From: an uncultured Prevotella sp.
Lineage (GTDB): Bacteria; Bacteroidota; Bacteroidia; Bacteroidales; Bacteroidaceae
Assembly: GCA_905233825.1 (NCBI GenBank)
Contig: CAJOFE010000003.1
Span: forward strand, 1-64,000
Length of the DNA stretch: 64,000 nucleotides
Direction of reading: 5' to 3'
In this document: positions 1,027 to 7,653 of the stretch, one piece after another
How the letters are laid out: each line of letters opens with the position of its first letter
Numbering within the stretch: the first letter of the stretch is position 1
Program-made: the position numbers and the translations under genes
The notes under the pieces: generated by a model
Databases searched by the model: none
Seen by the model: only the letters and a program-made list of their open reading frames with translations
What the model was told of the DNA's origin: nothing

Positions 1027-2220
1027 TTAATCCTCGAATACCTCAGTGATCTGACCAGAACCAACGGTGCGGCCACCTTCACGGATAGCGAAGCGCAGAC
1101 CCTGGTTCAGAGCAACAGCGTAAATCAGCTCAACAGTGATCTCTACGTTATCACCAGGCATTACCATTTCAACACCTGCGGGGAGAGTGATCTCACCTGT
1201 GCAGTCCATGGTGCGGAGATAGAACTGAGGACGATACTTGTTGCCGAATGGAGTGTGACGACCACCCTCTTCCTTCTTCAGGACATAGATAGAAGCCTTG
1301 AACTTCTTGAAGGGCTTGATCTGTCCGGGATGGCAGAGCACCATACCACGCTTGATCTCGTTCTTGTCGATACCACGGAGCAGCAGACCTACGTTATCAC
1401 CAGCCTGACCCTCGTCGAGCAGCTTGCGGAACATCTCAACACCGGTAACCACCGAGTTCTTGTCCTCACCAAGGCCGAGCAGCTCAACTGCGTCACCCAC
1501 GTGAATCACACCAGTCTCGATACGGCCGGTAGCCACAGTACCACGACCCGTGATTGAGAACACGTCCTCAACAGGCATCAGGAAGGGCTTGTCGGTAGCG
1601 CGAGGAGGCTCCTGAATCCAAGTATCGCAGATGTCCATCAGCTCCATCACCTTGTCTTCCCACTTCTCAACGCCGTTCAGGGCACCGAGAGCAGAACCGC
1701 GGATGATAGGAGTCTCGTCCTCGAACTCATACTGAGCGAGAATCTCCTGGACTTCCATCTCAACGAGCTCCAGCATTTCCTCATCGTCAACCATGTCGCA
1801 CTTGTTCAGGAACACGACCAGACGGGGAACGTTTACCTGACGGGCGAGCAGCACGTGCTCACGAGTCTGAGGCATAGGACCATCGGTAGCAGCTACCACG
1901 AGGATAGCACCATCCATCTGGGCAGCACCAGTAACCATGTTCTTCACATAGTCAGCGTGTCCCGGGCAGTCCACGTGAGCATAGTGACGCTTCTCGGTCT
2001 CGTACTCAACGTGAGCAGTGTTAATAGTGATACCGCGCTCCTTCTCCTCAGGGGCGTTGTCGATAGCGTCAAAGCTCTTCACCTTGTCAGCGTTACCGGC
2101 CACACGCTTCGAAAGAACGAGCGTGATAGCAGCGGTCAAAGTGGTCTTACCATGGTCAACGTGACCGATAGTACCAATGTTCACGTGCGGTTTGGTGCGC
2201 ACAAAAGTTTCTTTTGCCAT
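1027..2220 (-). CDS. tuf: Elongation factor Tu
   Basis: [30 protein letters not shown] motifs. Confidence 0.99.
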
Positions 2221-2289
2221 TGTTGTTTTTTGTTTTTATTAATTTTGTGAATATACAATTGTTTTTGCTCCTCCTATCGTTTCTCAGAG

Positions 2290-2361
<72 letters not shown>

Positions 2362-2373
2362 ATATGTTTATAG

Positions 2374-2446
2374 AGCGGAAAACGGGGCTCAAACCCGCGA
2401 CCCCCAGCTTGGAAGGCTAGTGCTCTATCAACTGAGCTATTTCCGC
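2374..2446 (-). tRNA. tRNA-Gly (TCC)
   Basis: Cloverleaf on reverse strand; loop CTTCCAA. Confidence 0.95.
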
Positions 2447-2532
2447 AAGTACGGCATGTTTGGCTTCGTCTCGGCATAAGCGAGCTTCTGCTCTCGACTT
2501 GCACAAAATTCCGCAAAAACATCTCTTGAGAG

Positions 2533-2615
2533 TGGGAGGTGATGGATTCGAACCACCGAAGTCGAAAGACAACAGATTTACAGTCTGCCCCATTTGACCG
2601 CTCTGGAAACCTCCC
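2533..2615 (-). tRNA. tRNA-Tyr (GTA)
   Basis: Cloverleaf with long variable arm; CAGACTGTAAATCTG. Confidence 0.95.
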
Positions 2616-2679
2616 ATTATTTTTTGCTTTTCCGAAGAATCTCTTTTCTCCGATTTCCCTTGGCTTTCGCCCTTCCTTG

Positions 2680-2753
2680 AGCCTCTTGTCGGATTCGAAC
2701 CAACGACCCCGAGATTACAAATCACGTGCTCTGGCCAACTGAGCTAAAGAGGC
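2680..2753 (-). tRNA. tRNA-Thr (TGT)
   Basis: Cloverleaf on reverse strand; loop TTTGTAA. Confidence 0.95.
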
Positions 2754-2853
2754 TTTTTAAGCAGCCGCTCTCGTTTCAGATTTACGACCTGTCGGAAAAC
2801 GGCTGCAAAGTTACGACTTATTTTTGAATTACCAAAATTTTTCAGGACTTTTT

Positions 2854-3156
2854 TTAGTAATTTCTCGATTTTTCCTTTATTTTCTGTAGCTGTACCCTCA
2901 GCGCATCGACACAAAGGTCTATTCCTTCCTCAAAAGTGTCGTTCACTTTCTCCACATGCACAGGAGTCTGGCCAGGTATGGTGACCGTGATACTCGTCTC
3001 CTTATTTTGTGCAGTAGCAGGTTTCACAACTTTCAATTGCACCTCTACTTTCTGAATATCTTCGTACGATTTTTCTAACTTGGCGACCTTCTTCTCGATG
3101 AACGCCTCTAACTTCTCGGTAGCGTCGAAATGAATCGACTGAATCTTAATTTCCAT
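2854..3156 (-). CDS. hpf: Ribosome hibernation promoting factor / RaiA family
   Basis: 100 aa, MEIKIQSIHFDATEKLEAFIEKKVAKLEK... typical HPF/RaiA. Confidence 0.9.
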   Translation of the reverse strand: MEIKIQSIHFDATEKLEAFIEKKVAKLEKSYEDIQKVEVQLKVVKPATAQNKETSITVTIPGQTPVHVEKVNDTFEEGIDLCVDALRVQLQKIKEKSRNY

Positions 3157-3193
3157 AGTTACCTCCTATTTTTTAAAAGTTAAACTATAAAGC

Positions 3194-4084
3194 TCAGCCC
3201 CTTGGATGGGCATCTTTGTAAACTCGTTTCAGCTGTTCAAACGTGGTGTGGGTATAGATCTGGGTTGTTTCCAGACTCTCATGCCCCAACAGCTTCTGCA
3301 CACTTTCCAGTCCTGCGTCGTGGTTCAGCATAGCGGTGGCAAACGAGTGGCGAAGCACATGCGGCGACCTTTTCTTCATGGTTGTCACCTTCGTCAGGTT
3401 CTCCTTCACGATGGCATACACCTGTTGTCCTGTCATCCGCCGGCCATGATTATCGACGAAGAGCGCATCGTCCTCATGTCCCGTTTCCTCATCGCGCACC
3501 TCTATATAGTGGTGCAGCTGCTCTGCCAGTTCCTGTCCGAAGGGCACTACCCGCTGCTTGTTCCGCTTGCCGGTCACCCTCAGTTGGCTCATGGCAAAAT
3601 CCACGTCACTGTCATTCAGTCCTGTCAGTTCTCCGCGTCTCAGCCCTGCCTCATAGAGTAATATTAATATAGTACGCGCGCGTACATCTTTAATATTATC
3701 CCCCCACTCCTCTTGATCCAAGAGTCGGTCCATTTCGTCTTCACGGACGAACTGCGGCAGTGGTTTCCGTTTCTTCGGTCCTTTAATGCTGTGCGCCGGA
3801 TCGCGCTCCACCAGTCCCCTGGTCAACGCAAACCTGAAGAACGAACGCAGTGCCGAGAGGCCTGTATCAACGGTCGAGGCTATATTCCCCCGATCCATCA
3901 AGCTCTCCATCCATCCCCGGATAATGTCGGCATCCACCGATGCCCAAGTGACCTCTGCGTTCAGAGACTGAAAATATGCCTCAAAGTCGCGAAGACTTAT
4001 CTCATAGCGCTTGACGGTCTGCTCACTGCGGTTCCGTTCATAGCGCAAATAGCTGAGAAATTGGTCAATCACGCTTTTCGGCAA
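3194..4084 (-). CDS. Tyrosine recombinase XerC/XerD family
   Basis: Phage-integrase catalytic motifs GLRRGELTGL, SPHVLRHSFATAML, LLGHESLETTQIYTH. Confidence 0.93.
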   Translation of the reverse strand: MPKSVIDQFLSYLRYERNRSEQTVKRYEISLRDFEAYFQSLNAEVTWASVDADIIRGWMESLMDRGNIASTVDTGLSALRSFFRFALTRGLVERDPAHSIKGPKKRKPLPQFVREDEMDRLLDQEEWGDNIKDVRARTILILLYEAGLRRGELTGLNDSDVDFAMSQLRVTGKRNKQRVVPFGQELAEQLHHYIEVRDEETGHEDDALFVDNHGRRMTGQQVYAIVKENLTKVTTMKKRSPHVLRHSFATAMLNHDAGLESVQKLLGHESLETTQIYTHTTFEQLKRVYKDAHPRG

Positions 4085-4132
4085 CGAATTTACGGAAATT
4101 TTTTGAATCTACCAAATTTTCCGGAAACTTTT

Positions 4133-4327
4133 TTAATTTTCCTCGGCTGTACGGAGCTGCTGTACATAGATAGCGTGTTCCATCTTCAGGCGCTTCAGTA
4201 CAGAGGGCTTGTTGAACTGCTGACGGCGACGGAGCTCTTTCACGATGCCTGTCTTTTCAAACTTTCTCTTAAACTTCTTGAGGGCCTTCTCGATGTTCTC
4301 GCCTTCTTTTACCGGTACAATAATCAT
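4133..4327 (-). CDS. rpsU: Ribosomal protein bS21
   Basis: MIIVPVKEGENIEKALKKFKRKFEKTG...LRRRQQFNKPS. Confidence 0.95.
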   Translation of the reverse strand: MIIVPVKEGENIEKALKKFKRKFEKTGIVKELRRRQQFNKPSVLKRLKMEHAIYVQQLRTAEEN

Positions 4328-4393
4328 ACTGTTTTTTGACTTTAATTTTTTGATTGTTAGACATTTTGCATCCTTCGCGCGCTATGCGCACAC

Positions 4394-4422
4394 GAATTGC
4401 GGGTGCAAAGGTACTACTTTTT
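4394..4422 (-). promoter_or_regulatory. rpsU promoter core AAAAAGTAGTACCTTTGCACCCGCAATTC
   Basis: TAnnTTTG -7 element; 29 bp identical to sequence upstream of tRNA-Gln (53898-53926). Confidence 0.8.
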
Positions 4423-4547
4423 AGCGAATCTACCAAGCTTTTTGCCAAATTTTATTAATTTCAGCCCCCAAAAGCCTTTTCTGATTACACATTTTGTCAC
4501 AGGATGGAGCAGCAGTAAAAGCCGCCCCACCCTTTTTGTTAATTTGC

Positions 4548-5684
4548 TTATTTGCTTCCTTTCCTCCTGTTACATTCCCTGCAAAGCATCTGACAGTTTT
4601 CTATTACCGTACGCCCACCTTCGCACCAAGGGGTGATGTGGTCGCCCTCCATCTCTGATATTTCAAACTCCTGTCCTGCATTGGGACATTCGGGATTGGC
4701 GCAGAGGTGATGCTGCCGCTCATAGACCTCCAGTTTGATGTCATCAGGAAAAGCACGTAACCCCAAATCGTGCTCGTCACGAGTCAATACGAAAGAGCAA
4801 ATGCCTTTCTTATTCTGCACCTCGCTGTCAATCACCAGTCGGCTAATCTCTGCATCCAACTGAGCCTTGTCAATTACCTGCTCATGGAAATGGTCATAAA
4901 GCGAGCCCCAATCCACGCCTTTCATGATTTGCTTACGCTTGCCGATATCGAAGGTTGCAGCCACCCACGTCATTACTGCCGAGAAATGCTGCCACAGCTG
5001 TGAGGCATTAGGATCGTGCTGGTGCTTAGCCATGTAGCCTTCAATAGTCTGCTTGAGACCAGGACGGCTTTCACTATTGGCTTTCCACTTCAAGGCCGTT
5101 TCCAAGAAGTCCTGCCGAATGGGGGAACCATTCATCAGATACTTTCCCATGTTATAGGCTGCACAATTCGACTTCGAGAAATACCGTTTGGCATCACTGA
5201 CGAACGGCCCTGCATAGACGGCATTTCGCAACTCTTGTGACGTAAGCCGCTCACCTGCAATATTAATGGTCTCAAACCAGTCGAGCTTCTCCTTGTCATT
5301 GCCAGAACACACATAGACCATCAGCTCGTAATCCAGTATCTGTCTTTGCTCCTCTTGTGTCAGATTATGGAAATACTGGAAGTCGTAGGCAAAGTCACCA
5401 TTCACATACTGGCAGATGCTGATAGTACGCTGTTGGCCGTCCATCACCTCAAAGGGCGCATCGGCATCTTCATCACGCGTGGCCCAATACATCACGTTCA
5501 ATGGGAAGCCCTTCTTGATAGTTGTAATGACGGCAGCCCGTTTCTTCTCGTCGTAGATAAACTCACGCTGGTAGGGAGGACGGATATCGAGTCGGCCACC
5601 ATAGCCTCTTACTCCCTGTTCTTCATTGTCCTCGTAGCCTGCTGTCAGCTCACGGACGGTAATCTTCTGTAATTCGATTTGCAT
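4548..5684 (-). CDS. DUF262 (GmrSD-like N-terminal) protein with C-terminal HNH endonuclease domain
   Basis: DUF262 motif FEVMDGQQRTISI; C-terminal CANPECP...GDHITPWCEGGRTVIENCQMLCRECNRRK HNH. Confidence 0.88.
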   Translation of the reverse strand: MQIELQKITVRELTAGYEDNEEQGVRGYGGRLDIRPPYQREFIYDEKKRAAVITTIKKGFPLNVMYWATRDEDADAPFEVMDGQQRTISICQYVNGDFAYDFQYFHNLTQEEQRQILDYELMVYVCSGNDKEKLDWFETINIAGERLTSQELRNAVYAGPFVSDAKRYFSKSNCAAYNMGKYLMNGSPIRQDFLETALKWKANSESRPGLKQTIEGYMAKHQHDPNASQLWQHFSAVMTWVAATFDIGKRKQIMKGVDWGSLYDHFHEQVIDKAQLDAEISRLVIDSEVQNKKGICSFVLTRDEHDLGLRAFPDDIKLEVYERQHHLCANPECPNAGQEFEISEMEGDHITPWCEGGRTVIENCQMLCRECNRRKGSK

Positions 5685-5689
5685 AGTAG

Positions 5690-6718
5690 TTATTTCTTTT
5701 TGATGAGTATTCGTGTATATAACTCCTTACCATTCAGAATAGGTTTCGCAAGGTCGTATATGTTATCACATCCATGATTTAACACACCAACAATCTCAAA
5801 TTGTTTTGGATTGTATTTGTGCAAAAACGTTATGGGTACCCCCATTACTCCATCATAGTTTACAGGAATATTTTCAACTCTATCTACATTAATTGCGTTG
5901 TATGAATCATACTTGGGATAATCGTCTGGAGTATATGTCCTGAAAAGGATTATTTCTTCGTTTCGCTTTTTATTGTCCAAATTGGTAAACCACACAACGG
6001 ATTTAACGAATGCATATTTTATACCTTCTATCACCTTACCCGTCTTTTCCGTTAGAGGATAAGTATCTGGAACTCTAAAATAATGATTTCTTCCATCCAT
6101 TGAGACTCCAAGCCACATTCTATTTTGAATTATGTAAGGAAAAATCTCCTTGTATTTAAGAGCATTCTGATTACCGATAATGATAAACTTCTTCTCATAC
6201 TTCATCAACTGTGCCACATACTCACGGAACAGGGAGAATGGCGGATTGGTTACCACGATGTCAGCCTCTTTCAGCAGTTCAATGCATTCACGGCTGCGAA
6301 AGTCACCATTCTCTTTCAGCGTGGAGAGCACATTCTTGTCATTCTGAATCAGGTAGCGCACATCAGCCAAATCTACACGCCCATCACCATTCACGTCCGT
6401 CACTTCCGAAATCTCAACCTTGTAGGCTACCTTCTTCTCGTTGCCTTCCTCGTCAATGGCAAAAAGCGGAAGCTCCTGTCCCGTTATAGGCGAACCGTTA
6501 TAGCATGTGGCTATGAGCTTCTTCAGCCCGAAAGCATTGAAGTTGTTGGCGAAATACTTGAAGAAGTTACTCTCGTAAGGGTCATCACAGTTGCACAGAA
6601 TCACCTTGCCGCGAAAATGCTGGCGATAGTGCTTTAGTTCGTTCTCAATGTCGGCGAGCTGGGTATAGAACTCGTCCTTTTTGGCCTCTTTAGCCGCATT
6701 CAGGTTTTTGTTTGCCAT
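5690..6718 (-). CDS. EcoRI-family adenine-specific DNA methyltransferase
   Basis: N-terminal AKKDEFYTQLADIENELKHY, NPPF catalytic motif; 5 bp gap to DUF262-HNH gene. Confidence 0.88.
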   Translation of the reverse strand: MANKNLNAAKEAKKDEFYTQLADIENELKHYRQHFRGKVILCNCDDPYESNFFKYFANNFNAFGLKKLIATCYNGSPITGQELPLFAIDEEGNEKKVAYKVEISEVTDVNGDGRVDLADVRYLIQNDKNVLSTLKENGDFRSRECIELLKEADIVVTNPPFSLFREYVAQLMKYEKKFIIIGNQNALKYKEIFPYIIQNRMWLGVSMDGRNHYFRVPDTYPLTEKTGKVIEGIKYAFVKSVVWFTNLDNKKRNEEIILFRTYTPDDYPKYDSYNAINVDRVENIPVNYDGVMGVPITFLHKYNPKQFEIVGVLNHGCDNIYDLAKPILNGKELYTRILIKKK

Positions 6719-7027
6719 AGATTGATAGTTTTAGTCATTGCACCCAACTATCAATCACGCCACCAAGCGAACACATAATAAAGGCGTGATGCACCTTATT
6801 GCGTTCAGCTTTGAGGCAGCCTCGGATGGAAACCTCACCAACCTAACAAGAATGCAACACGCCGAAGCGTGAATGCATTGCTATATTGGTTGGTAAGATG
6901 CTCCATACCGAAACATCTTATCACATATTATCTCTGTGCGTTGTTATTTCCAGAAAGTTTCCGAGGCTTTTGGCTGAACGCGAAATAATAGCGAATGCTT
7001 TTCTTTAGTCCGGATTTCTCCCCGAAC
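6719..7027 (-). ncRNA. Candidate structured 5' leader RNA of the methyltransferase/HNH operon
   Basis: Perfect paired arms read by eye: 6801-6809/6973-6981, 6819-6826/6960-6967, 6837-6843/6888-6894, 6851-6856/6874-... with cUUCGg loop, 6895-6900/6914-6919, 6754-6761/6783-6790, 6720-6730/6746-6756. Confidence 0.6.
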
Positions 7028-7033
7028 CGTTTG

Positions 7034-7065
7034 CAAAGATAGTCATTTTTTTGTAAAGAAGCAAA
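7034..7065 (-). promoter_or_regulatory. Promoter TTTG-N20-TATCTTTG for the structured leader
   Basis: Exact match to Bacteroidetes -33/-7 consensus on the reverse strand. Confidence 0.75.
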
Positions 7066-7135
7066 ATTAACGATAATATTTTTTATTTATTGCAGATATG
7101 CAAGTGGTGAAAAGCCGTGTTTTGAAACTGAAAAA

Positions 7136-7225
7136 GGTGCCTTCTTTATGGCAAAGAGATGCCTTCTTTATGCCCTGAAGGTGCCTTCTCCAAGGCATGA
7201 AGAAGGCACCTTTCCATTTTTAATG
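7136..7225. repeat. 22-bp period tandem repeat array A
   Basis: GGTGCC/GATGCC/GGTGCC/GAAGGCACC starts at 7136, 7158, 7180, 7202. Confidence 0.85.
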
Positions 7226-7653
7226 CTCGCGCGCGCATGCGCGCACACCCTATTTTTTTTTCAATGAAATATCTGCACTTCTGCTCCAACCCTTTGCAAA
7301 TTATTGAATGACAATGAGATAGATAGGTGCAGATATGGTAACAATAGTGACAGATATTCGGTAATTTGGCATAAAAACCTGCATTTTTTTGAAGAAAAAC
7401 GATGAAAAAAGTTCAAAAATACTCAAAATCGGATTGAAAAACAGCCAAACAGCCCCGTTTTTACCCCCAAATTCGGTATTTCAGAGCAGAAATGCATCAG
7501 AAAAATAGAAAAAATCAGCAAAAAACAGAAAAATTCGATAAAAAAGTAAAAATGTAGCTGTTTATATCTCGTTTTGCCAAGCTATTTAAATAGTGGCCCT
7601 GGAGGTGGTGGTTGGCACTGATTCTCAATAAAACATATAACACTTGGACGACA

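Follow-up and report, generated by a model that had tools for sequence, protein, structure and literature searches.

A putative attenuator-type leader RNA common mainly to restriction and defence operons in Bacteroidales

Defence genes need safe silence yet useful activity, and the coordination of many unrelated systems of this kind is largely open. In type II restriction-modification (R-M), expression can be controlled by a C-protein or by antisense. The leader RNA that we describe here is likewise predicted to govern the expression of R-M genes, but it is a structured cis leader common to several R-M types and is not accompanied by a controller protein gene. With transcription-attenuating riboswitches and leaders it shares a large conserved core, mutually exclusive helices of which one ends in a U-rich tract, a 5' UTR position, and a presence ahead of different operons, in several copies per genome; it differs from them in having no Rfam match, in heading restriction and defence genes rather than metabolic ones, and in an extra hairpin at the start codon. 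HEARO and the IscB omega-RNAs are also long structured RNAs that precede a gene pair including an HNH nuclease, but the leader here has no Rfam match, no IscB and no guide-like segment, and its cargo usually consists of unrelated enzymes. Lastly, DUF805 RNA (RF03081) is, again, a cis-regulatory leader motif of Bacteroidetes, but at 68 nt it differs in both sequence and structure, and it has no match in the window, by which we mean the whole 64,000-nt stretch of DNA from an uncultured Prevotella sp. (contig CAJOFE010000003.1) that was analysed.

In the window, the leader occupies positions 6719-7035 of the minus strand, the strand that also carries its promoter and the two genes behind it. A preliminary description of this region had proposed a promoter, a folded RNA and a downstream gene pair. 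Indeed, we found both elements of a Bacteroidetes-type promoter (7034-7065), with TTTG at 7062-7065 and the -7 box TATCTTTG at 7034-7041, and the distance from this box to the ATG of the methylase is 317 nt. The expected transcript start coincides with an optional 5' hairpin, H0 (CGGTTCGGGGAGAAATCCGGACT, 7007-7029), whose stem changes with compensation across copies and whose unchanged apex, GGGGAGAAATCC, is present in about 90 of them. The 5' box GCATTCGC (6991-6998), with a GCA that is invariant in a 33-sequence alignment, begins the core of the covariance model. The two genes behind the leader are what they had been taken for, namely an EcoRI-type adenine DNA methyltransferase of 342 aa (5690-6718; PF13651, 463 bits; PADLOC MTase_II) and a 378-aa GmrSD_N (DUF262) protein with an HNH nuclease domain (4548-5684; PADLOC REase_II PDLC03418, 398 bits). 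On the 5' side of the promoter, positions 7130-7245 hold a GCGCGCATGCGCGCGCG tract and recurring inverted stretches of the GAAGGCACCTT type, which lie outside the conserved element.

The RNA had not been recognised as a named class in the preliminary description, and cmscan against Rfam 15 likewise assigned the window leader to no family at the gathering threshold and returned nothing plausible at E ≤ 5; nor did any Rfam 15 family match the RNA in 14 related loci. The T-box model, too, was not matched in Rfam, and among the scanned window genes and the first genes there is no reverse transcriptase that would indicate a retron or DRT ncRNA. The literature that we searched gave no description of the class, though the tables of a large survey of human-microbiome candidate RNAs (PMC8040213) may list it. 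Its own genome contains the leader sequence only once, which rules out a multi-copy repeat there. The terminus of a known mobile element had been raised as another identity; blastn gave no match to the leader in phage and plasmid records, and no exact motif match was found in IMG/VR, and these empty searches speak against a phage or plasmid origin.

Relatives of the leader were detected by blastn in 32 of 149 related genomes. A covariance model, R1, built from 33 copies, matched 169 of the 398 genomes of the genus, with at most four copies per genome, and 27 of 393 genomes of the order, spread over 16 genera; in the phylum sample, the remaining 296 genomes gave no match, suggesting that the RNA class is so far confined to Bacteroidales. 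Exact motif matches in named GTDB contigs, mostly of rumen and gut origin, came from Prevotella, Xylanibacter ruminicola, Marseilla, Prevotellamassilia, Muribaculaceae and Paludibacteraceae. Cultured relatives with copies of the leader include Xylanibacter ruminicola and Prevotellamassilia timonensis. At locus L059 (6640-6989), a leader with H0 and with pairs resembling P1, P3 and Y:Z (helices described below) precedes a gene for a 263-aa membrane protein. Since this leader escapes R1, the class is wider than the model detects.

Folding of the minus-strand leader (6719-7035) gave -120.3 kcal/mol, much more stable than dinucleotide shuffles (-83.0 ± 5.2 kcal/mol; z -7.17), with 0 of 100 shuffles as good. 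Covariation was assessed in two ways. In an alignment of 100 sequences we used a fitting model that contained P1, P3, P4 and the central hairpin, so that the pair counts of these helices lean towards it, but neither P2 nor the GAGG/CCTC hairpin; here we found compensatory change in 36 of 45 pairs, and changes on both sides that keep pairing in 451 cells versus 128 in shuffles, a value reached by 0 of 500 shuffles. In an all-against-all test, the leader from 44 nonredundant copies was cut into 21 segments, set by alignment columns, and in each of the 210 pairs the pairing of a segment with its own partner was scored against that with the same segment from other copies, a comparison whose protection against lineage effects is incomplete. 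The median z over the 210 segment pairs was -0.06, and the top ten were, in order, C1, P1, P3, Y:Z, P4, VH, X:Y, P2, P1b-U+ and S. Thus the folded RNA proposed in the preliminary description, as a cis-regulator or a stand-alone ncRNA, has stems that covary among homologs and finds no counterpart in Rfam or in phage or plasmid records.

The core of the RNA is built on P1, in which GCGTTCAGC (6973-6981) pairs with GCTGAACGC (6801-6809; 98.4% of cells paired, 9/9 pairs compensated, z -18.6), on P3, GCCTCGGA (6960-6967) with TCCGAGGC (6819-6826; 98.4% paired, 8/8 compensated, z -14.3), and on P4, TGGAAA (6947-6952) with TTTCC (6828-6832; 93.9% paired, 4/4 pairs covarying, z -10.0). P2, formed by TATTATTTC (6982-6990) and GAGATAATA (6926-6934; 89% of cells paired, z -6.6), is pseudoknotted with P1. 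A GAGG/CCTC hairpin (6813-6836), which is GGGG/CCCC in relatives, encloses in its loop the 3' arms of P4 and P3 and, like P2, is pseudoknotted with P1-P3-P4; about 86% of its cells are paired, and it is weaker in the all-against-all test (z -4.2). Further elements are the variable hairpin VH (AAGATG...CATCTT, 6895-6919, z -9.6), the central stem C1, ACCAACC (6888-6894) with GGTTGGT (6837-6843), and a two-part AATGCA-CACGC-TTCG-GCGTG-TGCATT hairpin at about 6845-6879. C1 is hypervariable in sequence and maintained in pairing, and its z of -22.5 is the top value of the 210 segment pairs. All arms quoted in the preliminary description were located where it had placed them; it had called them nested, and their complementarity stands, but P2 and the GAGG/CCTC hairpin are pseudoknotted and some arms take part in mutually exclusive helices.

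Within P1, P2, P3, G4, C2 and C3, G-U combinations far exceed A-C combinations (272 versus 55), and this points to the RNA of the transcribed strand, not a DNA hairpin, as the selected molecule. A compact core with several pseudoknots, in which unpaired AAAC and GCA are invariant in the 33-sequence alignment, would also suit a ribozyme that cleaves or processes itself and thereby shapes defence mRNAs at their 5' end or in their stability; we regard this as highly improbable, as no known ribozyme family was matched in Rfam and as the alternative helices and U-rich tract described next suggest regulation instead. Three further candidate features were rejected: a regulatory helix z-w (ATCACGCC/GGCGTGAT) showed covariation not above swapped controls (Z-Sa, z +0.7), a contact between the loop of S and the invariant 5' GCAUU was unsupported (z -1.0), and a conserved upstream ORF was discarded because ATG-TGA-like triplets are, by reading, not maintained among copies.

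The ten helices recovered in the all-against-all test include two mutually exclusive sets. The segment Y, GGCGTGTTGCATTCTTGTT (6845-6863), pairs through its 5' part with X, AATGCATTCACGC (6867-6879), to form the X:Y hairpin (z -9.1), and it also pairs with Z, AATAAGGTGCATCACGCC (6783-6800), to form the Y:Z helix (z -11.0). Y is unable to pair with X and Z simultaneously, and since both helices score, selection acts on both. A separate own-versus-swapped comparison gave -16.0 for Y:Z with its own partner and -11.0 with swapped ones, and the control pair X-Z, two segments that are alike (possibly by descent), was without covariation (z -0.7). In the second set, the 3' arm of P1 scores with two incompatible partners, namely its P1 partner and the segment after the U-rich tract (P1b-U+, z -6.5), so selection acts, by the same reasoning, on both P1 and the anti-P1 alternative. 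The anti-P1 alternative is the hairpin Q, GAACGCAATAAGG-TGCATCACG-CCTTTATTATGTGTTC (6769-6806). Directly 3' of Z lies a U-rich tract (6777-6782 in the window), and 48 of 51 nonredundant copies have such a tract, with 5 or more T in a window of 7 nt. Q is the sole terminator-like site in 6600-7400 (6797-6781), though a weak one, as one site compares with a shuffle mean of 0.8. Read from the sequence, the alternative helices together with the U-rich tract are the anatomy of an attenuator: as in known attenuator leaders, a structured domain supported by covariation is combined with mutually exclusive helices (X:Y/Y:Z; P1/P1b:U+), one of them terminator-like.

The position of the RNA relative to genes is regular. 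In 173 of 205 copies a TAnnTTTG box was found no more than 110 nt upstream, where shuffles predict 14, and the first ATG mostly follows about 50-70 nt past the end of the model, across all cargo families. Between the end of the model and the ATG of the window copy, no TAnnTTTG was seen by reading. The start codon is adjoined by the S hairpin, GATTGATAGT (6747-6756) with ACTATCAATC (6720-6729; z -5.8), which is significant in 85 of 103 copies before restriction or defence genes and in 45 of 60 in a second set, and which in L145, L152 and L161 differs in sequence and has the same pairing. The ATG spacing and the upstream promoter box match the 5' UTR position of attenuator leaders, on a predicted transcript. 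If the RNA were instead a stand-alone ncRNA acting in trans, perhaps regulatory or antitoxin-like, with a length of about 260 nt and its 3' end at the U-rich tract, it would have the promoter box of its own that we see, and a terminator-like end with the U-rich tract of 48/51 copies. We nevertheless consider this unlikely: a gene starts about 50-60 nt after the RNA regardless of cargo, leaving scant space for a second promoter, S both adjoins the start codon and covaries, and with unrelated cargo families no single protein partner fits. Because the ATG spacing is nearly constant and a conserved hairpin abuts the ATG, a cis-leader is favoured over such an ncRNA. The covarying S hairpin beside the ATG and the weakness of the terminator-like site in the window could also be read as a leader that works only as a translational switch, akin to an RNA thermometer, or on mRNA stability, without transcription attenuation; Y:Z and the U-rich tract, kept in nearly all copies, would then be superfluous, and we give this reading very little weight.

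About 60% of the copies precede an EcoRI-type methylase/GmrSD-HNH pair, and the remainder stand mostly before other restriction or defence genes, with a minority before surface or unrelated genes. The tie to this R-M pair seen in the preliminary description thus stands, but it extends to restriction and defence operons generally. In a first set, in which one representative was scanned per cluster, 75 of 131 downstream first genes were EcoRI_methylase, with L134 another by Pfam. The minor cargo of this set comprises four N6_N4 methylases, three DISARM-helicase-like and three MmeI-type IIG proteins, two HsdM, two DEDDh exonucleases (PDC-S48), and single cases of DndC, Tsp45I, a D12 methylase, PDC-S11, another methylase and an HNH-helicase. 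A second set, whose genomes partly overlap those of the first, had EcoRI_methylase in 49 of 64 cases, and its minor families were the same. Eight copies of the first set precede a protein of 769-837 aa without a Pfam or PADLOC match, in which an NPPF methylase-like motif was found by reading (L039:4616-6919, with relatives at L144, L166, L181, L185, L191, L198 and L210); this family is a candidate for an unannotated DNA modification or defence enzyme. Conversely, of about 25 EcoRI_methylase genes sampled in Bacteroidales, only 8 had the RNA.

The HNH domain of the second gene, with a long structured RNA immediately upstream as in omega-RNA, and a weak match of its HNH segment to IscB and Cas9d far under the cut-off, would be expected if the RNA were part of a ribonucleoprotein effector, guiding the HNH protein in the manner of IscB/HEARO. 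This is extremely improbable, as the leader also heads operons whose first genes are not HNH genes (HsdM, MmeI, DndC and others), HEARO was not matched in Rfam, the HNH protein reaches about 21 bits against an IscB cut-off of 175, and the variable regions are paired stem arms, not guide-like single strands. Adjoining the leader copy of L040 is a divergent ORF of 1415 aa (about 2020-6270), which starts MSKILAFDPGTNSLG and is Cas9-like by reading.

Among 126 first genes with close spacing, about 20 could not be recognised as defence genes, so the regulon may not be limited to defence. These genes include sulfatase/EptA, acyltransferase_3, BspA LRR, Big_2, BACON, CsgG, Band_7 and others. S is significant in 5 of 23 copies before non-defence genes, and several of the copies without S may be relics. 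L037, L060 and L178 look like leaders whose operon was lost. At L044 (347-370), the methylase starts with ATT rather than ATG and its frame is interrupted, with the leader intact, which likely represents a decaying operon.

Leaders that are 90-97% identical carry unrelated cargo. In one pair, 97% identical, the cargo is MmeI in one case and PDC-S11 in the other; in another, 95% identical, an EcoRI methylase is exchanged for the 779-aa family. Leader identity and methylase identity show no correspondence (rho 0.03, 2415 pairs), and upstream flanks are related in only 14 of 7626 pairs. As like leaders bear unlike cargo, identities are uncoupled and flanks are rarely related, the leader behaves as a module, with defence genes exchanged behind it; homologous recombination is the simplest route. 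The unrelated cargo behind leaders 91-97% identical, the mostly unrelated upstream flanks and the limit of four copies per genome could also be expected of a DNA element, that is, a recombination or docking site (an attC-like folded single strand) for the exchange of defence cassettes. We hold this to be very unlikely, as a DNA hairpin would not be expected to give the bias of G-U over A-C on one strand, orientation, promoter and ATG spacing are all fixed, mutually exclusive helices would not be predicted, and ordinary homologous recombination within the shared leader accounts for the same data.

Taken as a whole, the RNA probably represents a new class, an attenuator-type leader that acts in cis and is common mainly to restriction and defence operons, with a putative role in their regulation. 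It would be made as a 5' untranslated RNA of about 310 nt from its own Bacteroidetes-type promoter, and the transcript would continue into the gene that opens a restriction or other defence operon. The core, a double pseudoknot in which P2 and the GAGG/CCTC hairpin join P1-P3-P4, may serve as a sensing or timing domain, whose state would select either X:Y with P1, or else Y:Z or the anti-P1 hairpin Q, ending at the U-rich tract. Depending on this choice of helix, we infer, transcription would halt ahead of the operon or read through, and the S hairpin at the start codon could add a second layer, at translation. Because unrelated cargo reuses the leader, several defence operons in one cell may be under one RNA-encoded control.

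The putative attenuator leader, found with type I, II and IIG restriction, phosphorothioation and candidate defence genes, would, if the reading is true, directly attest a layer of control that these systems have in common, and it would mark uncharacterised defence genes, any gene behind it being a candidate. Through its alternative helices the switch is open to direct tests by point mutation. A more speculative proposal, which we find attractive but doubtful, is that a riboswitch-like class senses one intracellular signal and turns on an RNA-defined regulon of unrelated defence and some surface-modification genes. The putative signal might be the cell's establishment in a new host, or a change in a metabolite or nucleotide under phage attack; new defence cassettes would be recruited to the regulon by recombining behind the leader.

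Lastly, two loci show unusual arrangements. L209 carries tandem leader copies (1545-1762 and 5287-5512), about 3.7 kb apart, the second without a close ORF. At L162 (1483-1745), a distant member of the class, with P1 GTATCGG/CCGATAC and P3 TCTGGAAA/TTTCCAGA recognised by eye, is followed immediately by a DUF805 RNA (RF03081) and then an ORF, and a second DUF805 RNA lies upstream of the next gene.
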